Virus record (IMG/VR): IMGVR_UViG_3300006802_000804
Span: 1 to 20,090 of that record
Strand: one strand, 5' to 3'
DNA length: 20,090 nt
From: a virus
The notes below the pieces were generated by a model that was not told where the DNA came from, made no database searches, and saw nothing but the letters and a program-made list of their open reading frames with translations. Within the stretch, counting starts at the first letter, position 1, and every line of letters starts with the position of its first letter. This document shows positions 2,892-19,918 of the stretch, one piece after another. A program made the translations under genes and the position numbers.

Positions 2892-3175
2892 CGGAGCGGC
2901 GAACAGTCGTTCTGGTGGGAGGCAGGCACCACGGAAAGAAAGCGACTCTGGACCTGCCTACCTACACCAATGTCGGAGGCTACTCGCAGCCGAACATTGT
3001 CGTGGACGGAGAACCGTATCTGATTGAGCTGATGCATCTCAGAGACGGATCAATGGTCCGTTTTCTTCGTGCTCCGGAAATGACGGTTCGTTCCGCAGCC
3101 GATGCTCTGATGTCACTGACATTACAGGCTTCTGAGCAACTGCCGAAAATACTGCATGACTGGCAACTTTCATGA
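2888..3175 (+). CDS. Hypothetical protein, 95 aa, coupled to terminase
   Basis: The start is GTG at 2888, overlapping the glycosyltransferase stop (GTGA), with CAGGAG seven bases upstream. Its own stop overlaps the terminase start (ATGA at 3172). The protein begins RRTVVLVGGRHHGKKATLDL, which superficially looks like a Walker A loop but lacks the consensus spacing, so nucleotide binding is not claimed. The middle appears to be mixed beta strand and the end an amphipathic helix. Similar short proteins with a VxLxGGxxHG opening occur beside phage packaging genes, but I cannot give a function. The double overlap shows that it belongs to the packaging operon. Confidence 0.65.
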   Translation: MTERRTVVLVGGRHHGKKATLDLPTYTNVGGYSQPNIVVDGEPYLIELMHLRDGSMVRFLRAPEMTVRSAADALMSLTLQASEQLPKILHDWQLS

Positions 3176-5766
3176 CAGCGTCCACAAGCATTCTGGAAGA
3201 GGCTCCAAAAACCCTGTGGGGCAGAATAGACGGTCAGATACGGCCCTACGTCCGGGATGAAGAAGGCAGAATACACGTCCTGACTTGGGCTCCCATGCCG
3301 GGCTCGCAGAAAAGCTTCATGGAATGCTCTGTCCAGGAAGTCTGTTATGCTGGAACCCGTGGCCCTGGTAAGACTGATGCGCTGCTGATGTCCTTTGCCC
3401 AGCACATCGGGAAATGGGGGAAAGACTGGCGAGGAATCATCTTCAGGCGGACCTATCCGGAACTGGAAGACATCATCGGCAAGGCTGATAAGTGGTTCTC
3501 GGAAATCTTTCCGGAAGCAACGTACAACAAAGGAAAGCACTTCTGGGAATGGCCCACCGGAGAACGGCTTTACTTTGGACACATGCGGGTGCCGTCTGAC
3601 TACAACAAGTACCACGGACATAATTATCCATTCATCGGCTGGGAAGAACTCACGACATGGCCCTCCAAAGACTGCTTCGTGGTCATGCTGTCGACGAACA
3701 GAACTACGAATCCCAACGTACCCAAGATGATCAGGGCCACAACTAACCCTCACGGATGCGTTCCGTACGGAGAGGTGCTGACCGACAGGGGATGGGTAGA
3801 CATTGCAGAAGTGGCGGCAGGAGACACGGTTCTTTCTGTGGACGCTTACGGACAGCAGGTATGGAAACCTGTTTCTGACGTGATTCGTCAATACTGGGAA
3901 GGAGACATGATTTCCCGACAGGGCAGGGGCATGCACATGGTCTTTACTTCGGACCATCGACTGCCTCACCTCAACACTTCGCGAACAGAGCATTCCGTCA
4001 AATCCTTCGAAGATTTACCTGGGGACGCCAGCATTCGAAGAACGGGGTTGCCGGTAGAAAGGCTTCGGGAAGAAGACCGCTTTGCTCCTGACGCCGCCTT
4101 TAATTCAGAAGGCCAGCAGAGCCCGGTAACGTCTTTGACGGCATATCAGTACGCCTCAGTTTTAGGATGGATGCTGGCAGAAGGCTCGACCTGTCCTCGT
4201 GAGAGAGCCTTCTGCATTGCGCAGACGAAGCCGCATACCGTTCAAATGATTCGTGACTTGCTGAATGACTGCGGATTCAAGTTCAGATACGACGGCCAGC
4301 AGTTCTGGGTTTACGAAGGCTCTTGGATGAAGGAGTTCGAGAAGTACGGAAAGTGCAGGGACAAGTACATTCCGAGAAGAATCTTTGATTGCGGGACTGG
4401 CCCTTTAACTGCTCTCTTCGAAAGCCTGATGCTGGGAGACGGATGCGGTCAGACTTACTACACGACTTCCAGAAAACTGGCAGACGATGTCGCAGAGCTT
4501 TGTACGAGGCTGGGGTATGCGACGTACGTTTCTTTTCGTCAGCGGGAAGACAGGAAAGGTCTTTCATGGTCAGTCAGTTTCTCGGAAAGAGCGGCTACGA
4601 AACTGATTACTGGAAACCATCTCTATGATGTTTCTTCGAGACATGGTGGAGTTAATTGCACGCGAGAAAAGTTTTCAGGGGAAGTGTATTGCCTGACCGT
4701 CCCCGACACGGAGACTTTTTTTCTGCGACAGAAAGGATGCGTCTGGCTGTCAGGGAACTCAGGTCATAACTGGGTTAAGGCCCGCTACAAGCTTCCGGTC
4801 AAGGCAGTAAACGAGTCTGGTCAGAAAAATTACTTCGGAGAACTCTGCGGCGGCGAGCAGATGGTCGACGAGAAGGGCAAGCCGATACTGGACGGCATGG
4901 GTCGCCCCATGTACCAGCCGGAGCGAATTGCCATTCATGGGGACATCGACGAGAACTTTCTGCTACTCGACGCCGACCCTGGGTACAAGGCGACCATTGC
5001 TGCTTCGGCAAGCTCTCCCAGCCAGCTGAAAGCATGGCTGCACGGTTCCTGGGATGTGGTGGCAGGCGGCATGTTTGACGACCTGTGGGATTCCCAGATT
5101 CACATTGTGGAGCCGTTCAAAATTCCCCCATCCTGGAGAATCGACAGGTCGTTCGACTGGGGATCGTCCAAGCCTGCATCCGTAGGCTGGTGGGCAGAGT
5201 CGGACGGAACCGACTACATCAACGCAGCAGGATTCAGAATCCCTACGGTCAAGGGAGACATCTTCAGAATCCATGAATGGTACATGTGTAAAAAAGGCGA
5301 AGAGAACAAGGGGCTGATGCTGACAGACCGGGAAATTGCAGCAGGCGTGAAAGACATGCAGCTTCAGCATCCCACACTGATGGGAAAAACGGTGCATCCA
5401 GGTCCGGCAGATACCAGTATCTTCGACACCACCAATGGACAGTCCATTGCAAAGGCGATGGCTGACATGGGAGTCCGCTGGACCCGCGCCGACAAATCAT
5501 CAGGCAGCCGCATCCTGGGCTGGCAGCGAATCAGAAACAGACTGCAGGCGTCCATCAAAAAGGACGGACTACCCAGAGAGAATCCTGGGCTGTATGTTTT
5601 CGACACCTGCGAGGCGTTTATTCGCACAGTTCCGGTACTGCCCCGAGACGAAAGAAACACGGAAGACTGCGACACCGAGGCAGAAGACCATATCGCAGAC
5701 GAAATGCGCTACCGTCTATACAGTAGGACCGGAAAAATGGTCAATAAGAAAATTCGAGGCAGATAA
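3172..5766 (+). CDS. terL: Terminase large subunit interrupted by an intein
   Basis: This is the ATP-driven motor and nuclease that translocates and cuts phage DNA at the portal. The 864-residue precursor has Walker A GTRGPGKT (61-68), a Walker B region ending WEEL (157-160), and the coupling motif ATTNPHG that ends at residue 195. Residues 196-529 are an intein, and the ATPase fold resumes at SGHNWVKARY. The C-terminal RuvC-like nuclease shows FDWG (D662) and EDHIADEMRY (D839, D843). The spliced protein would be 195 + 335 = 530 residues, a normal size for phage terminases. The start ATG overlaps the previous stop (ATGA). The portal start overlaps the stop by one base (TAATG), so packaging genes are translationally coupled. 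Without splicing the motor should be inactive, because the insertion separates the coupling motif from the rest of the ATPase. Confidence 0.95.
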   Translation: MTASTSILEEAPKTLWGRIDGQIRPYVRDEEGRIHVLTWAPMPGSQKSFMECSVQEVCYAGTRGPGKTDALLMSFAQHIGKWGKDWRGIIFRRTYPELEDIIGKADKWFSEIFPEATYNKGKHFWEWPTGERLYFGHMRVPSDYNKYHGHNYPFIGWEELTTWPSKDCFVVMLSTNRTTNPNVPKMIRATTNPHGCVPYGEVLTDRGWVDIAEVAAGDTVLSVDAYGQQVWKPVSDVIRQYWEGDMISRQGRGMHMVFTSDHRLPHLNTSRTEHSVKSFEDLPGDASIRRTGLPVERLREEDRFAPDAAFNSEGQQSPVTSLTAYQYASVLGWMLAEGSTCPRERAFCIAQTKPHTVQMIRDLLNDCGFKFRYDGQQFWVYEGSWMKEFEKYGKCRDKYIPRRIFDCGTGPLTALFESLMLGDGCGQTYYTTSRKLADDVAELCTRLGYATYVSFRQREDRKGLSWSVSFSERAATKLITGNHLYDVSSRHGGVNCTREKFSGEVYCLTVPDTETFFLRQKGCVWLSGNSGHNWVKARYKLPVKAVNESGQKNYFGELCGGEQMVDEKGKPILDGMGRPMYQPERIAIHGDIDENFLLLDADPGYKATIAASASSPSQLKAWLHGSWDVVAGGMFDDLWDSQIHIVEPFKIPPSWRIDRSFDWGSSKPASVGWWAESDGTDYINAAGFRIPTVKGDIFRIHEWYMCKKGEENKGLMLTDREIAAGVKDMQLQHPTLMGKTVHPGPADTSIFDTTNGQSIAKAMADMGVRWTRADKSSGSRILGWQRIRNRLQASIKKDGLPRENPGLYVFDTCEAFIRTVPVLPRDERNTEDCDTEAEDHIADEMRYRLYSRTGKMVNKKIRGR
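3757..4758 (+). other. Intein with LAGLIDADG homing endonuclease inside terL
   Basis: The 334-residue insertion begins with Cys1 in the context NPHG-CVPYGEVLTD and ends VWLSGN before Ser (+1). Block A is CVPYGEVLTDRGWVDI; block B is the TxxH motif FTSDHRLP. The endonuclease has both LAGLIDADG motifs: LGWMLAEGS (331-339, acidic E337) and FESLMLGDGC (416-425, D423). Block F is GEVYCLTVPDTETFF. Removing the insert joins NPHG to SGHNWVKAR, which restores a continuous terminase sequence. The penultimate residue is Gly instead of the usual His, so Asn cyclisation may be slow or assisted by another residue. Both endonuclease acidic residues are present, so the element looks mobile. By hand count, GC is 84/180 at 4561-4740 against 33/60 at 4921-4980, consistent with foreign origin but a small sample. 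Confidence 0.9.
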
Positions 5767-13037: not shown

Positions 13038-13534
13038 TGCCTGCCTCAGAATCAGAAGCATACGATCAAAGCGTGCTGCAACTCCTGAGCGTGTGGGAGC
13101 ATGATCCAGAAGCGAATTGGACAGTAGAGCATGTCGACGGAGACCTGGTTATTCCGGGAGTCCCTATTCAGTTTCCGAACAAGGTAGATGCAGTAGTTCG
13201 TGACAGGGAGTCCGCCACAGGAAACAACATTGCCCCCTGGGCACAATTGCTGTGGCAGCCTGCCACTTCTCGCCAGACAAACGTGGGACGTAACTCAGGC
13301 AACCGATTTGAGCACACTGGCACATTGACACTGCAGATCAATGTGCCTGCTGGAGACGGGCTATTTCTTGCAACGGCATTGGCTACAATGGCAGGAAAAG
13401 CATTCAAAGGACAGTGTACTTCTGGAGGGGTATTTTTTAAGAATCCCCGAACACAAGTCATTGGCAAGATTAGTGGAGGCTTCGTGTTTCGCGTAGACTT
13501 CCTGACAGAATTTCAATTTGACGAGGTGACCTGA
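13037..13534 (+). CDS. Probable tail terminator / completion protein
   Basis: With ATG at 13037 in a TGATG overlap and AGGTGGA six bases before it, the product is 165 residues. An N-terminal helix with LLSVWEHDP precedes a beta region (IQFPNK), the segment PWAQLLWQPATSRQTNVG, a strand GTLTLQINVPAGDG, a helix (ATALATMAGKAFKG), and a last beta hairpin (GKISGGFVFRVDFLTEF). This alpha/beta order resembles gpU-like tail terminators, which form a ring that stops tube growth and joins the tail to the head. Gene order, directly before the tail tube protein, agrees. Another start at 13016 would read through the ribosome binding site and is not used. Confidence 0.72.
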   Translation: MPASESEAYDQSVLQLLSVWEHDPEANWTVEHVDGDLVIPGVPIQFPNKVDAVVRDRESATGNNIAPWAQLLWQPATSRQTNVGRNSGNRFEHTGTLTLQINVPAGDGLFLATALATMAGKAFKGQCTSGGVFFKNPRTQVIGKISGGFVFRVDFLTEFQFDEVT

Positions 13535-15093
13535 TGCCCCAGCTACAAGCGATCTCCAGCAATAAAACTCAACTCAGCATCGCCGTCGAAAGTTCGATTG
13601 GTGTTTTGCCAGGTACTCCGGTGTGGACCCCGTACGAGCCGAACGGCTACGACGACCTGGGAGGCGAGATTACCACGGCACCTCGCAAGCCGATCAAGTC
13701 CGACCGTATGGGTCGAAAAGGACCAGTCGTTGACGTGGAAGCCAAGGCAGGCTTCAACAGCGACCTGACATACGGCAACATGTTTGAGTTGCTGGAAGGC
13801 TACCTGTATGCGGCAGCCCGGCGTAAGTCGGAAAAGCTCAATACCAACGGCACCGAAATCACTGCCGTCACAGCATCCAGCGAAACATTTACGGTGGATG
13901 CGGATGGGGATACCTTGTTCCTTGTCAATGACCTGGTACTTGCCTCAGGCTTTACAAACTCCGGCAACAATGGTGTTTTCACGGTGGCCAGTTCTACCGA
14001 CACCACAGTGGTGGTTGATGAAGATGTGACGGTCGATGAAACTCCTCCTACGACTGCCAAACTGGTAGTCGTAGGTCACGAGTTTGCCTCAGGAGATGCT
14101 GAGATTCTCACCACGTCCGGTTTTCCGACGCTGATCACCACGACGAAAGATTTGACCGAGCTTGGCATCCTTCCCGGCGAGACCATTTACATCGGAGGAG
14201 ACTTGACGGGCCAGAAGTTTGCCACTGCCGCAAATAACGGATACGCCCGAGTCCTGTCGGTGACCGCCAATGAAATGGTGCTGGACAAGACCTCTGACAC
14301 AATGGTGACAGATGACGGAGCAGGGAAAACAATCAGAATTTTCCTGGGGCGACTTCTCAAGAACGAAGTCGGGTCGAGCATTGTTCGTAAGACGTTTCAG
14401 ATCGAACGTCAATTGGGTGCTCCCGACGACACCTACCCTGCAGCTATCCAGGCAGAATATGTCACTGGCGCAGTTTGTTCAGAGTTTGCTCTGAATATCC
14501 CGGAAGCAGAAAAGGTCAATGTGGACCTGTCGTTCATGGGACTGAATCACGAGACTCGTGAGGCAGCAGGTGCGGTGACCGGCATTAAGGCAGGCACTCG
14601 ACCCGCACTTGTTGCTGAAGATGCCTTCAATTCTTCGTCCAGTGTTCCACGCATCAAGATCAACGTGGTTTCTTCCAGCAACAGTTTTCCCGATCCTCTG
14701 TTTCAGCAGATCGGCGAACTGACACTGACCATCAACAACAACCTGTCTCGAAACCTGGCGATTGGTACGACAGGGGCGTTTGAAATGTCGGAAGGCGACT
14801 TCGGTGTACAGCTTGAGCTGGAAGCCTTTTTCGCCAATCTTTCCGCGTTGGCTGCGGTGCGAGCCAACAGCGATCTGACGGTCGATTTCAGCCTGTACCA
14901 TCAGAACACCGGCATCAGTTTCGACATTCCATTACTGGCAGGTTCAGGGGCACTGGCAAATGTGGAAGCGGATACGCCCGTCAAGATTCCACTGACCAGC
15001 GAAGGGGCAAACGGCATTGATGTGGCTCCGACGCTGAACCATATTCTTGCCATTGTGTTTTTTGACTACCTTCCTACAGCGGCAGGTGCGTAG
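13534..15093 (+). CDS. Major tail tube protein with inserted domain
   Basis: The 519-residue product starts by TGATG overlap. The opening resembles siphophage tail tube proteins: KTQLSIAVESSIGVLPGTP, then PRKPIKSDRMGRKGPV and a GYLYAAAR segment. Residues about 110-272 form an insertion with the pattern DLVLASGFTNSGNNGVFTV and a second related strand set (FATAANNGYARVLSVTAN), two related beta modules. The tube fold resumes with VRKTFQIERQLG and SEFALNIPEAEKVNVDLSF, and ends with small hydrophobic strands. Tube subunits stack in hexameric rings around the tape measure; the inserted domain probably faces outward. A strong terminator follows at 15116-15150. Confidence 0.85.
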   Translation: MPQLQAISSNKTQLSIAVESSIGVLPGTPVWTPYEPNGYDDLGGEITTAPRKPIKSDRMGRKGPVVDVEAKAGFNSDLTYGNMFELLEGYLYAAARRKSEKLNTNGTEITAVTASSETFTVDADGDTLFLVNDLVLASGFTNSGNNGVFTVASSTDTTVVVDEDVTVDETPPTTAKLVVVGHEFASGDAEILTTSGFPTLITTTKDLTELGILPGETIYIGGDLTGQKFATAANNGYARVLSVTANEMVLDKTSDTMVTDDGAGKTIRIFLGRLLKNEVGSSIVRKTFQIERQLGAPDDTYPAAIQAEYVTGAVCSEFALNIPEAEKVNVDLSFMGLNHETREAAGAVTGIKAGTRPALVAEDAFNSSSSVPRIKINVVSSSNSFPDPLFQQIGELTLTINNNLSRNLAIGTTGAFEMSEGDFGVQLELEAFFANLSALAAVRANSDLTVDFSLYHQNTGISFDIPLLAGSGALANVEADTPVKIPLTSEGANGIDVAPTLNHILAIVFFDYLPTAAGA

Positions 15094-15115
15094 TTAAAAT
15101 TCAAAGACGGACTTC

Positions 15116-15150
15116 GGGCTCGGTCCATTGTAGGGCCGAGCCTTTTTTAT
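15116..15150 (+). terminator. Strong intrinsic terminator after tail tube gene
   Basis: GGCTCGGTCC (15117-15126) pairs with GGGCCGAGCC (15133-15142) over 10 positions with one G-T wobble and a 6-base loop, followed by TTTTTTAT. It lies in the 82-bp gap between the tail tube and tail chaperone genes and should reduce transcription of downstream tail genes relative to the tube gene. Confidence 0.9.
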
Positions 15151-15175
15151 TGATTCCTTCACACAGGAAACTCCA

Positions 15176-15670
15176 ATGGGACTTTGCAGCAATTTCGGGA
15201 CTTCCCCGACACGAGAGGCAGAAGGAGCCTGGTTCGAACTGGACGAGGACACGAAGGTCAAACTTCGTCGAGCAGGCGGTGGCAACAAAGATTACGACAA
15301 GCTGCATGCAAAGCTGCTGCAGCCTCACATGCAGCGACTCCGCATGGCAAGGGGGCTACGAATCCCCTCTGGGCTGGAAGAGCCGCTGAAAGAAATTCAG
15401 CGGACCTGCTATGCCCGTACCATCATTGTCGGATGGCAGACCAAAGTTGACGGAGAATGGTGTGACGGCATCGAGCCCTATCGACTGAACGAAGACGATG
15501 CTCCTGTGGGCATTCCTTATCAGTCCGCGAGTGAGCTTCTGCCTGTCACGGAAAAAAATCTTGTGAAGCTGCTGAAAGATTTCCCGGAAGCCTTCACGAC
15601 GATCCTTGAACTGTGTGCCGATGCCACTGCCTTCAAGGACGAGGCTTTAGAAGTAATGGAGGGAAACTGA
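15176..15670 (+). CDS. Tail assembly chaperone, upstream frame (lambda gpG-like)
   Basis: ATG at 15176 has AGGAAA five bases upstream. The 164-residue product is mixed: a polar start, a basic helical part (KLRRAGGGNKDYDKLHAKLL), a YARTIIVGWQTKVDG strand region, and a C-terminal helical part (LVKLLKDFPEAFTTILEL). It occupies the place of the siphophage tail-assembly chaperone, between tube and tape measure genes. In lambda this protein coats the tape measure during tail assembly. Its last codons contain a slippery heptamer that lets a fraction of ribosomes enter the next frame, giving a 280-residue fusion. The family call rests on gene order and the frameshift layout. Confidence 0.8.
   Translation: MGLCSNFGTSPTREAEGAWFELDEDTKVKLRRAGGGNKDYDKLHAKLLQPHMQRLRMARGLRIPSGLEEPLKEIQRTCYARTIIVGWQTKVDGEWCDGIEPYRLNEDDAPVGIPYQSASELLPVTEKNLVKLLKDFPEAFTTILELCADATAFKDEALEVMEGN
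15661..15667 (+). promoter_or_regulatory. Programmed -1 frameshift site (G_GGA_AAC)
   Basis: The heptamer GGGAAAC sits with correct phase: zero-frame codons are GGA (15662-15664) and AAC (15665-15667), followed at once by TGA (15668-15670). Slipping back one base continues at CTG (15667) in the downstream frame, which is open to 16017 and has no good start of its own. This X_XXY_YYZ layout is the classic one; lambda G/T uses GGGAAAG. The predicted junction is EVMEGN followed by LTEVLEWN. Confidence 0.85.
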
Positions 15671-16017
15671 CAGAAGTCCTGGAATGGAATCTGGCGTGGG
15701 GCAAGCATCGAGAAGTGATGCACATGAGGTATCAGGACAAGGACGAGTCGGAGATACCTCCTACGCTTCTCAATGAGCCAGAACTCCTGCCAGGACTTGA
15801 TATTTACTATTCCGCCTTCTGGGAACTTTTTTCGGACAGGCAGCTGGGAATGGGTGTTGGTCCTATCCCTTACTCTGCGATGAGAGCCTACTGTCTCGAC
15901 TGGGAAATGGATGACGAACAGGCATCTGACTTGAAGAGACTGGTTCGAAAAATGGACTATGTATTTCTTGACTGGCAGGAAAAGCAGTCCAAAAAAACCA
16001 AAAAGGTAGGTAAGTAG
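15667..16017 (+). CDS. Tail assembly chaperone, downstream frame (gpT-like, made as -1 fusion)
   Basis: This frame encodes 116 residues joined to the preceding gene through the -1 slip, giving a 280-residue protein. The frame opens earlier, with a GTG at 15613, but that lacks a ribosome binding site and the codons before the slippery site overlap the first gene. The first ATG inside (15718) is also poorly placed. The T part contains LTEVLEWNLAWGKHREVMHM, an acidic Pro region, an aromatic helix (YYSAFWELFSDRQLG), and a basic tail (KQSKKTKKVGK). In lambda the T part recruits the tail tube protein to the tape measure complex. The fusion is expected as a minor product. Confidence 0.8.
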   Translation: MTEVLEWNLAWGKHREVMHMRYQDKDESEIPPTLLNEPELLPGLDIYYSAFWELFSDRQLGMGVGPIPYSAMRAYCLDWEMDDEQASDLKRLVRKMDYVFLDWQEKQSKKTKKVGK

Positions 16018-16019
16018 CC

Positions 16020-16484
16020 ATGTCAACTCCCGAACGATTTGCAATCGAGATGAATCTTCGGGCAGAAGAGATGGAAGAGTCCATCAACAGGATTGTGGAG
16101 TTGGCCGGACGTGAGATCGCCAGGGAAGTAATCGCTCTCACTCCGGTCGACACCAGTCAAGCACTCAGCAACTGGACCGCATCCCTGGGCTCTCCTGCCA
16201 CAGGAACAAGAGCAGCCTTCTCCCCTGGAGAGTTTGGCAGCACGGCATCCGCTTCGGGATCAGCCGCGCAGGCAGCAGCATGGACGGCAATCCGAGGCAG
16301 AACGACAGGACAGGATGTCTGGCTCAGCAACAATCTTCCCTACATCAATGACCTGAACACAGGTAAGATTACGCCTCGTTCCAGCCCAGCTCCTGATCGT
16401 ACGCCGTACCCAAGATTTGCCGAACGAGCCGTACTGTTTGGAGCTGCCTCTGTCGTTGCGAACTCCAGAAAGATTTTCAAGTAA
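16020..16484 (+). CDS. HK97 gp10-like neck/tail protein
   Basis: The 154-residue product begins just after the T-frame stop, with AGGTAGG nine bases upstream. An N-terminal amphipathic helix (FAIEMNLRAEEMEESINRIV) leads to the diagnostic LTPVDTSQALSNW motif, a variable loop rich in Ala, Gly and Ser, then WLSNNLPYINDLNTG, and a C-terminal helix with FAERAV. This order is typical of the HK97 gp10-like family found at the head-tail joint or tail completion region. Here it lies between the tail chaperones and the tape measure and not in the connector block. The next gene starts by TAATG overlap. Confidence 0.8.
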   Translation: MSTPERFAIEMNLRAEEMEESINRIVELAGREIAREVIALTPVDTSQALSNWTASLGSPATGTRAAFSPGEFGSTASASGSAAQAAAWTAIRGRTTGQDVWLSNNLPYINDLNTGKITPRSSPAPDRTPYPRFAERAVLFGAASVVANSRKIFK

Positions 16485-19400
16485 TGGCTACAAACACCCT
16501 GCACATCCGAGTTCGTTCTGACGGCACTCGCGTAGTCAGCAAAGAAATAAAAAGCATCGGGGAGTCTGCTAACCTGGCTTCCCGTCAAATCTTTTTGATG
16601 CGCAGGGCAATTACAACTCTCTTCGCAGCCGCAGGGATTCGCGCAGGCTTTCGCATGATTGAGCAGTTCACCGAACTGAACAACAAGCTGAAAACCGTTA
16701 CTTCCAGCACGGAAGAACTGATCAGAGTTCGAACAAGGCTTCTTCAGATTTCAAACGCTTCTCGAACAGCTCTTTCTGCAAATGTTCAGCTTTACGCAAG
16801 AACGACAAGGGCCATAGAGTCTCTTGGAATTTCTGAAGAAAACAGACTGAAATTCACAGAGCTGCTGGCCAAAGAGGCAGTGATCGGCGGAGCTACGACT
16901 GTGGAAGCCACGAACGCCATCCGGCAGTTGACTCAGGGTATGGGCGCGGCTGGATTGAAGGGAGAAGAGCTGAGGTCTGTGCTTGAACAGCTGCCTACGG
17001 TTGCGAAGAGAATTGCAGATTTCCTGGGAGTGTCTACCGGCGAACTTCGAAAACTGGGAGAAGAAGGAAAGCTCACCGGAGAAGTGGTAGTTGCAGCAAT
17101 GCTGGCAGCGGAAAACGCTATTCAACAAGCCTTTGGAGAAACGACGGCCACCGTAGGCGGGTCATTTGAAGTTTTGAAAAACAGCTTCATTGAATTTACA
17201 GGCAACATTGATCAGTTCACGGGAGGCTCTAAGACACTTGCAGCTTCTCTTCAACTTGTCGCAAGAAATCTGGAAATCATTTCTGCACTTGTCCTCGGAC
17301 TTGCTGCCCGAGCAGTGTTTGTGGCCCTTGCAAACAATGGACTTACTCTGGCAGCAGCAATTGGAATAGCCACCGGAAAAGTCTTCACTTTTGTAAAATC
17401 TTTATTTGTCGTAGGAACTGCAGTTCCTGTAGTGCGATCTGCGACTGCTGCCTTTTTACAAATGACCGCTGCAGCAAGCGTAAGCAGTGCCGCCGCGTTG
17501 CCCACTGTAGCAGCCCTTAGTCTTCCTGTAATGTTTGGACTGATTGCCGCAGTAACTGCACTGACGCTTGGATTTACCTACTTGTCTTCTAAGCAAAATA
17601 AGTACGTTACGGAAGTAGAAGCTGCAACAAGAGCAGAAAAAGCGCACGAAGAAGCCATTCGTAAAAAGATGCAGGCAATGCAATGGACATTTGGAGGAGG
17701 GCCAGAGACTTCGGGAGATTTGCTCAAAGAAGTCGAGAAAAGAAACAAAGACCCAATGGAAAGGCTTAAAAGCCAGTTGCCTGAAGTAGAAAGAGACTTG
17801 CGAAAAATTCAGGCACTTTACATGTCTATTGGGACAGAAGAGCTGAACATTGCCTTTAATCGAGACAATCCTTTGAAAGCAGAGTCTGTAGAAAGGTCCA
17901 GACAAAAAGTTGTTCAACTCAACAAAGAAATAACAGACCTTAAAGAAAGCATTAAAAAGGTAGACATTGCCTCTACTAAAGATTTCTCTGTAGCCAAAGT
18001 TCTAGCAGAAGCAGAGGCAGCTGCCAAAGGACTGGGAGGACAGTTGCAGTTTGCAGAGCAGGCTGCCAGAGGACTCATGAATCTAATGGATAGGGGAAAC
18101 GGTCGTCCTTTATTTTCGCTAACCGAAGATGAACTTAAAGGAACCTCTGCTCAGCAAAAAGCTAACGAAATTCAAAGCATTGTTTCTCGCATGAAGGAGC
18201 TTAGAACAGAGTGGGACGAAAATGCTCTTAGCTCAGAAAAATTTCAGCAGGCAATGCAAGTCAACAGGGAAAGGCTTGACGAGCTTACCGGAGGAGCTTC
18301 TGCCGCCACTCAACAACTAGCTCAGGAAAACGCACTGTTCGAACAATACGGCGGAGACATGGAAGTCATTGCAATGAAAATTGCAGGGGCAACTGATGCT
18401 AAGATTGCAGCGTTTATCAAAGAGAAGAACATTCAACAGGAACTGAAGGATGCAAGAGACGCAAATCTTGCGTCCCAACGTCAGGAAGAAGCAGTTCGAA
18501 GACAAAACACGGCTGCCATTAACGGAACCATTGACGCATTGAAAGAAGAGCTTCGTCTGTTTGGACTGGTAGGAAGAGCCCGTCAGCTTGCTCAGTTTGA
18601 AGCCTTGCCAGGAGTGTCGGAGACTGACGTAAATCAGTTTAAGCAATTACAGAATCAGCTCGGACAACGAGAGACGGAGGCCGCTGCGCAAGCCGCAGTG
18701 ACTCAGTTGCAGGCCCGCATTGAAGCATTTGCAAAGCAGTCAGAAGAGCTGAAAAAAATTGCAGCCTCTGCACCACCAAAGGTTGCAGAAGACATTGCTA
18801 ATCTGCTCAAGGAAGGTCAGGCAAAGATTGATCTCGCCGCACAGACTCTGGCTGAGAAGCTGGCCACAGAGGTAGGTGCATCTGCTTCTACGATGGTGGC
18901 AGAAGCAGAAAGAGTATTGGTGGCAGGAGGGACTACTGTAGGTGCCGCAGTAGGAGGAGCGTTTGCTTCTGCATTTAAGGCAGCTCTTGCAGGAGCCATT
19001 CCTGGCATCAGTGCCCTCAATGTTCCAGGGGGCGGATTCCCGGTTGCTCCGGGAGACCCTTCCGGAGCAGGAGGACTTACTGCAGAGCAGTTGGCGCAAC
19101 AGGAAGCATCTACTCAAACTTTGCAACGACTTGGTTCAGAAATTGACTCCAATACGGAAAGAATGAGGGCACTTACGGAACAGTTCAATCTGTTTGGATT
19201 TCAAGCAGAGACTTCTTCAGGAAGGGCCAGCAATGCACTTTCCGGATTCGGAGACCAGGCCACCAATCTGGGACAGGAACTGCAAGGCACGTTCAACTCC
19301 ATCTTCAGCAGCCTTGAAGACGCGCTCGTGGGATTCGTTACGACCGGAAAGCTGGACTTCAAGTCGCTGATCAACTCGATTCTTGCAGATCTTGCCCGCA

Positions 19401-19918
19401 TGGTCGTCAGGATGCTGATCATTCAGCCCTTGATGGGATTCTTCAGCGGGTTCTTCGGGGGGATTTTCGGATTCTCGGGAGGAGGTTCAGTAGGAGGAGC
19501 CTTCGGACTCCCTGGGTTTGCGAGCGGCGGGTTTGTTAATGACGATCCTTCCGTTCCTCAGCGATTCGCAACGGGAGGCAGAGTCTACGGACCAGGCACA
19601 GGTGTCAGTGATTCGGTGAACGCGCTGCTGTCTCGCGACGAGTTCGTGGTTAATGCTGCAGCCAGTCGACGCAACATGGCCGGACTGGAGTATCTCAACG
19701 AGACAGGCAGAATGCCTGGAGGCGGCTCCGTCACATCAGTAACCTACTCTCCGAACGTAAATGTTACCGTAGAAGGTAACAGTGATCGGGCTGCAGGTAA
19801 CGGAGCCCAGATTGCTCGGGATATGGAGCAACAGATGCGAGCGCAGTTCAATGAGTTTGTCGCCCAGGAGCAGCGGCCTGGGGGCGCATTCTCCAAGACA
19901 AATGAGGATGTACTATGA
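16484..19918 (+). CDS. Tail tape measure protein
   Basis: The 1144-residue product sets tail length and is threaded in the tube lumen. Residues about 25-240 match the tape-measure N-terminal domain (TELNNKLKTVTSSTEELIRV, LTQGMGAAGLKGEELRSVLE). Hydrophobic segments lie at about 268-366 (GLAARAVFVALA; SLPVMFGLIAAVTALTLGF) and could insert in the host membrane during DNA entry. Long charged helices and an Ala/Gly region occupy about 375-900. A lambda-type C-terminal block follows from about 929 (TFNSIFSSLEDALVGFVTTG, IIQPLMGFFSGFFGG), then a Gly-rich tail with the ATGGRVYGPG and DEFVVNAAASRRNM motifs. At roughly 0.15 nm per residue the tail would be near 170 nm. GC falls to 22-23 per 60 bases in parts of 17581-17940 but is 33/60 at 19321-19380. 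Confidence 0.95.
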   Translation: MATNTLHIRVRSDGTRVVSKEIKSIGESANLASRQIFLMRRAITTLFAAAGIRAGFRMIEQFTELNNKLKTVTSSTEELIRVRTRLLQISNASRTALSANVQLYARTTRAIESLGISEENRLKFTELLAKEAVIGGATTVEATNAIRQLTQGMGAAGLKGEELRSVLEQLPTVAKRIADFLGVSTGELRKLGEEGKLTGEVVVAAMLAAENAIQQAFGETTATVGGSFEVLKNSFIEFTGNIDQFTGGSKTLAASLQLVARNLEIISALVLGLAARAVFVALANNGLTLAAAIGIATGKVFTFVKSLFVVGTAVPVVRSATAAFLQMTAAASVSSAAALPTVAALSLPVMFGLIAAVTALTLGFTYLSSKQNKYVTEVEAATRAEKAHEEAIRKKMQAMQWTFGGGPETSGDLLKEVEKRNKDPMERLKSQLPEVERDLRKIQALYMSIGTEELNIAFNRDNPLKAESVERSRQKVVQLNKEITDLKESIKKVDIASTKDFSVAKVLAEAEAAAKGLGGQLQFAEQAARGLMNLMDRGNGRPLFSLTEDELKGTSAQQKANEIQSIVSRMKELRTEWDENALSSEKFQQAMQVNRERLDELTGGASAATQQLAQENALFEQYGGDMEVIAMKIAGATDAKIAAFIKEKNIQQELKDARDANLASQRQEEAVRRQNTAAINGTIDALKEELRLFGLVGRARQLAQFEALPGVSETDVNQFKQLQNQLGQRETEAAAQAAVTQLQARIEAFAKQSEELKKIAASAPPKVAEDIANLLKEGQAKIDLAAQTLAEKLATEVGASASTMVAEAERVLVAGGTTVGAAVGGAFASAFKAALAGAIPGISALNVPGGGFPVAPGDPSGAGGLTAEQLAQQEASTQTLQRLGSEIDSNTERMRALTEQFNLFGFQAETSSGRASNALSGFGDQATNLGQELQGTFNSIFSSLEDALVGFVTTGKLDFKSLINSILADLARMVVRMLIIQPLMGFFSGFFGGIFGFSGGGSVGGAFGLPGFASGGFVNDDPSVPQRFATGGRVYGPGTGVSDSVNALLSRDEFVVNAAASRRNMAGLEYLNETGRMPGGGSVTSVTYSPNVNVTVEGNSDRAAGNGAQIARDMEQQMRAQFNEFVAQEQRPGGAFSKTNEDVL

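Follow-up and report, generated by a model that had tools for sequence, protein, structure and literature searches.

The window, by which we mean the whole 20,090-nt stretch analysed here, belongs to the metagenomic IMG/VR virus record IMGVR_UViG_3300006802_000804, which is probably a fragment of a virus genome. Between its major tail protein and tape measure genes lies a pair of overlapping open reading frames (ORFs) that, judged from sequence comparisons, very probably encodes the tail assembly chaperone pair of a long-tailed phage, expressed via programmed -1 ribosomal frameshifting. The features of this pair, hereafter G (upstream) and T (downstream), are as follows.

15165..15169, + strand: AGGAA, likely Shine-Dalgarno site of G, 6 nt 5' of its ATG, from reading the sequence
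15176..15670, + strand: G-like tail assembly chaperone ORF, 164 aa (phrog_313, E 2.9e-13)
15661..15667, + strand: slippery heptamer G_GGA_AAC, with a heptamer at the equivalent junction of 103/103 distinct loci
15668..15670, + strand: zero-frame stop TGA, directly 3' of the heptamer (adjacent in 75/103 loci)
15667..16017, + strand: T domain, read in the -1 frame, 116 aa and stop (PF23812 Phage_TAC_18, E 1.2e-15; phrog_3817, E 5.8e-28; AlphaFold2 pLDDT 91.3, first helix at residues 2-21)

The G ORF starts at ATG 15176 and its 3' end reads ATG GAG GGA AAC TGA. GGGAAAC therefore stands in X_XXY_YYZ phase with the zero-frame stop adjoining it, as a sequence-only reading of this DNA had claimed, and the -1 frame is open for 116 codons past the heptamer, from CTG 15667 to TAG 16015-16017. 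The products of 164 and 280 residues given in that reading, with EGN|LTEV as their junction, follow from the ORF coordinates. It had further held that the -1 frame has no credible start, and we find the same: after GTG 15613, 18 codons 5' of the slip point, no ATG, GTG or TTG occurs in this frame until GTG 15715, which is followed by ATG 15718 and ATG 15724.

That the two frames would form a G/GT pair of the lambda kind, made by a -1 frameshift, is supported by domain families, gene order, conservation and published site predictions in relatives. The upstream protein matches a tail assembly chaperone family (phrog_313), and the downstream protein matches a tail chaperonin family (phrog_3817) as well as Phage_TAC_18, with a score of 57.8 bits that lies above the Pfam gathering cut-off of 27. 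In addition, phrog_8233 (271 positions) matches first G and then T, the pattern that a family of fused proteins would produce. The AlphaFold2 models of both domains are confident (mean pLDDT 91.4 for G and 91.3 for T), and the G model resembles viral tail chaperones in BFVD, including proteins of 262 and 268 residues, which are fusion-sized. Searches of the PDB with the G and T models returned nothing significant and no solved homologue, and profile searches of PDB sequences with both domains likewise gave nothing significant. In Pfam, G had no match and T matched PF23812 alone, so that neither matches the lambda G or T families. The gene order is tail tube, G/T pair, HK97-gp10-like gene and tape measure, one gene intervening before the tape measure gene.

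13534..15093, + strand: tail tube gene (PF18906 Phage_tube_2, E 1.3e-22)
15116..15143, + strand: hairpin with T run resembling a terminator, in the gap that separates the tail tube gene from G
16020..16484, + strand: tail completion / HK97-gp10-like gene, between GT and tape measure (phrog_169, E 6.3e-25)
16484..19918, + strand: tape measure gene (PF20155 TMP_3, E 4.9e-51)

Loss of the heptamer or of the open -1 frame in close relatives had been named as evidence that would speak against frameshifting; both are kept in the nearest relative, IMGVR_UViG_3300006916_000712 (G 77% and T 68% identical), where GGGAAAC is retained and the zero-frame stop lies one codon further 3'. We also fetched 15 phage regions, 14 of them annotated and one (L013) without annotation. 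Across these regions, the window and the nearest relative, an in-register heptamer is present in 17/17 loci (GGGAAAC in 14 and AAAAAAC in 3) and is followed by 104-130 open -1 codons. The expectation that automatic annotation would miss the fusion held for the most part, as 11 of the 14 annotated regions have no joined CDS, and failed for the remaining three, namely those of the Rhodobacter phages RcSimone-Hastad and RcRudolph and of phage KL1.

A wider survey was based on scans of IMG/VR and GTDB contigs, in which the queries were peptide patterns within T, one of them at its very start, and the heptamer was not required; because the patterns lie inside T, the survey favours loci with a recognisable T start. 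The scans enlarged the set to 124 loci, of which 21 were dropped as identical over the junction, leaving 103 distinct loci with the window included. One contig scan contributed the best 80 of 86 confirmed loci, and a scan of genome contigs contributed two, titled Anaerolinea thermophila MAG. Smaller alignments (A3-A6) were also built, and A4, A5 and A6 were used for scanning; the A4 scan returned only the already known relative. L001, L002 and L019, which are the window itself and the contig of the nearest relative again, were left out of the survey.

Conservation of the heptamer among relatives, proposed earlier as a check, extends to every distinct locus in this survey: 53 have AAAAAAC at the junction, 48 GGGAAAC, one GGGAAAT and one AAAAAAT. 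Among 57 representatives, loci under 75% identity, 55 have RRRAAAC at this place. As a control, we considered the same G genes at least 10 codons upstream of the junction, where any in-frame X_XXY_YYZ occurs at 19 of 10,300 codon positions, and GGGAAAC or AAAAAAC in frame at none of the 10,300, against 101 of 103 at the junction. The zero-frame stop follows the heptamer directly in 75 of the 103 loci, one codon later in 15, four codons later in one and 13 codons later in 12. These 12 loci (L042, L046, L050, L055, L056, L061, L062, L064, L071, L073, L092 and L094) form a subgroup with phage M6 (Yuavirus), in which a stop at +13 codons, elsewhere mostly at 0-1, would leave a 13-residue tail on the short product.

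Our analysis adds to the sequence-only reading a structured stretch of RNA: the 141 nt after the heptamer fold far beyond synonymous-codon shuffles.

15674..15798, + strand: predicted stimulatory RNA structure in which 15674-15682 pairs with 15790-15798 as the outer stem and the inner hairpins lie at 15705-15721 and 15726-15760 (codon-shuffle z -5.76, 0/1000; dinucleotide-shuffle z -3.47, 0/200)

The stricter null permutes synonymous codons within T and thus preserves both protein and codon usage. Under it, none of 1000 shuffles of the window's 141 nt was as stable as the native sequence, the nearest relative reached z -2.66 (5/1000 as stable), and the representatives (56 of 57 were usable in the fold tests) gave a mean z of -2.72, with 43 of 56 at p<=0.05. 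In shorter stretches of 40-80 nt from the window, dinucleotide shuffling revealed no signal (z 0.93 to -0.32), so the window's folding signal needs the long-range stem. The signal is also local. Foldings of 60 nt that start 6 and 61 nt past the heptamer have mean dinucleotide-shuffle z values of -1.47 and -1.62, against -0.13 to -0.45 for four other 60-nt positions, and under codon shuffling the first 40 codons past the slip point have a mean z of -2.62 (a fraction of 0.68 of the 56 at p<=0.05), compared with -0.46 and -0.19 further along T. Within the contig, the junction ranks first of 319 folding windows over 13 genes, with ranks 2 and 3 in the following gene; the start of that HK97-gp10-like gene (16020-16205) is the second most structured stretch of the 319 (codon-shuffle z -4.1 and -3.73).

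The geometry of the folding has a constant and a variable part. Over the 56 representatives, mean pairing probability rises from 0.51 at +7 to 0.92 at +9, where the null gives 0.73, and the 5' arm begins 6-8 nt past the slip site across the family (6 nt past the heptamer in the window). The partner of this arm depends on lineage, lying mostly at +30-37, +39-51 or +109-115, and at +123-131 in the window. An alignment of the Septimatrevirus group comprised 25 of 28 loci (L120 and L125, whose matches begin inside T, and L072 were left out). In these 25 relatives the named helices contain 30 cells with changes on both sides, against a shuffled mean of 14.7 (0/500), and 81.8% of cells are paired, against at most 40.8% in slid versions, a control that leans towards the structure and is partly circular because the structure was picked after viewing the folds of the same 25 relatives. 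When structures compete on this alignment, structure 1 (outer stem 8-18/105-115) pairs 81.8% of cells and structure 2 (9-18/41-50) 70.8%, which indicates that subgroups differ. RNAalifold found no common structure on the same alignment, and this result, together with partner strands that differ between lineages, makes the exact fold uncertain. By eye, a pseudoknot is possible in the window, with GTCCTG pairing to CAGGAC inside the second hairpin. A search of 15000-16100 against Rfam gave a single hit, which scored far under its gathering threshold and lies outside the RNA element.

We consider it likely, on the strength of these predicted folds, that RNA structure past the heptamer stimulates frameshifting. 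The frameshifting may instead be real and the folding a by-product of codon choice with no stimulatory effect, which appears unlikely but deserves serious weight, given that the 25 relatives lack an RNAalifold consensus, that 13 of the 56 representatives stay above p 0.05 and that the partner strand changes between lineages. Against it, the synonymous shuffles preserve protein and codon usage, the effect lies at the junction and not later in T, and the window's junction ranks first of 319. The excess of both-side changes over column shuffles and slid controls points the same way, with the partial circularity already described. The KL1 paper describes a predicted stem-loop at its own junction; in the literature searched, we found no report of a family-wide RNA structure at this position.

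Relatives commonly have a Shine-Dalgarno-like element 12-13 nt 5' of the heptamer that, on average over the 57 representatives, goes beyond codon choice, whereas the window has none at -14..-10 of its heptamer (duplex energy 0). In dnaX, such an element is combined with a slippery site and a hairpin (PMC3711429). The window resembles this three-part cassette in its slippery site and, by prediction only, its downstream structure, and many of its relatives share the upstream element too; it differs from dnaX in being an unrelated gene, in having C instead of G at position Z and in lacking the upstream element. This lack counts against frameshifting in the window, as does a report that in E. coli ribosomes shift far less readily on A_AAA_AAC than on A_AAA_AAG (PMC5009743). 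Haloarchaeal tailed viruses are described as using both G_GGA_AAC and A_AAA_AAC (PMC5009743).

Translation of the -1 frame appears to begin at the slip point itself. The first residue after the slip is Leu in 102 of the 103 loci, including both with a T-ending heptamer, and in T codons 2-16 third positions account for 53% of differences between 137 representative pairs, against 44% in the G end, the positive control; in the single comparison of the window with its nearest relative, this preference is weak (4 differences at position 3, 3 at position 1 and 2 at position 2). It is very unlikely that T is translated alone from an internal start, with the heptamer incidental. Candidate codons are present in the window (GTG 15613, or GTG 15715, ATG 15718 and ATG 15724, the last three of which also fit locus L003), and in some phage records T is annotated as starting independently, further downstream. 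However, both conservation and the first predicted helix start at the slip point, and a start at 15715 or later would truncate that helix; as for GTG 15613, the nearest relative's -1 frame is closed there and is open only 8 codons 5' of the slip. Moreover, in 42 of the 103 loci the stretch from the upstream -1 stop through codon 20 of T contains neither ATG nor GTG nor TTG, and an independent T start therefore cannot explain the family.

Transcriptional slippage on the A/G run, in place of ribosomal slippage, is a still less probable source of the fusion: the heptamer is a homopolymer-like run and 53 of the 103 loci have six consecutive A, but GGGAAAC, which offers no run longer than three bases, is the heptamer of the window and of 47 other loci, and the codon-frame register and downstream structure suit slippage by the ribosome. 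That the two ORFs are a single gene that is decaying, or that an indel from sequencing or assembly has split, might be entertained for a metagenomic contig but has a negligible chance of being right and is refuted by the split at the same heptamer in all 103 distinct loci, isolate phages with complete genomes among them.

The preferred reading, a programmed -1 ribosomal frameshift, describes a mechanism found in phage textbooks, and predictions of the same site already exist for named relatives. For gp18/gp19 of Burkholderia phage KL1, a 142/264-aa pair, GGGAAAC is predicted directly 5' of the TGA of the short protein, along with a downstream stem-loop (PMC3483164). The G and T of KL1 are homologous to those of the window and are likewise followed by one gene before the tape measure gene, an arrangement reported for KL1 and HK97 (PMC3483164); they differ in having only 28% (G) and 36% (T) amino-acid identity to the window's proteins and in a published structure that spans only 35 nt (PMC3483164). 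In Acinetobacter phage Loki (gp12/gp13), the predicted heptamer also adjoins the tail chaperone stop and is AAAAAAC where the window has GGGAAAC (PMC5313236), and the model of the window's G matches the fold of the fused protein (262 aa) of Loki. The printed predictions for KL1 and Loki thus assign the window's frameshift pair to a known type (PMC3483164, PMC5313236). RcSimone-Hastad and RcRudolph likewise have GGGAAAC adjoining the stop in a homologous pair, at low identity to the window (G 23-26%, T 36-37%), and a paper on Rhodobacter phages states that a programmed frameshift is usually present in tail chaperone genes (PMC8601537).

A review covers the G/GT mechanism of lambda and how widely it is conserved; in lambda, as would hold for the window, the longer chaperone arises by a -1 frameshift near the end of a gene that follows the major tail protein gene (PMC5009743). 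The window differs from lambda in that its G has no Pfam match and its T belongs to another family (PF23812). The slippery heptamer of lambda is GGGAAAG, and we know of no gene between GT and the tape measure gene in that phage. Measured frameshifting was 6% and 7% for two genes belonging to a tail chaperone cluster of a phage (PMC3711429), and sites of this sort are treated generically by PRFect (PMC10885494).

In the window, we infer that most ribosomes would halt at the TGA and release the 164-aa G-like chaperone, whereas a minority would slip by -1 on G_GGA_AAC, the Gly and Asn tRNAs re-pairing with GGG AAA, and would continue into the 280-aa GT-like fusion. The RNA structure, with its start 6 nt 3' of the heptamer, may aid this slippage, and the neighbouring stop codon possibly does so too. 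Judging from lambda, the G part may bind the tape measure protein and the T part may recruit tail tube subunits. For the whole branch of phages with a Phage_TAC_18-type T, we tentatively suggest, in a proposal about as open to failure as to success, one cassette of fixed geometry, consisting of RRR_AAC, usually an adjacent stop, a 5' arm 6-8 nt later and often an upstream Shine-Dalgarno-like element. The partner of the fixed arm would have been exchanged between lineages (about +30-37, +39-51 and +109-115, and +123-131 in the window). The stimulator would thereby be kept by partner switching within coding sequence and would set the G:GT ratio at an Asn-codon slip site that is weak by itself.

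Specialist interest may lie less in the frameshift than in the structured element with its fixed 5' arm and changing partner. If this element is real, it offers many natural versions of a single stimulator that share slip site and 5' arm and differ in the partner strand, and these could be used to quantify what structure, spacing and a neighbouring stop each contribute to a low rate of frameshifting in bacteria. For annotation, a simple rule emerges for Phage_TAC_18-type pairs, namely to join the frames at RRRAAAC, which 3 of the 14 annotated records follow.

Further parts of the window deserve mention. At the place matching the hairpin at 15116-15143, a strong hairpin was seen by eye in 13 of the 17 loci (the window, L003-L012, L017 and L018) and was not clear in L013-L016; lying between the tail tube gene and G, it may damp transcription ahead of the chaperones. 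Far upstream, the terminase large subunit ORF (3172-5766, 864 aa) seems to harbour an intein: it has terminase matches at residues 40-194 and, weakly, at 625-683 and 803-858, between which phrog_85 matches at 166-285, and it also has a weak LAGLIDADG match. A glycosyltransferase family 2 ORF (1470-2891; PF00535, E 4.4e-31) lies upstream of the terminase gene.
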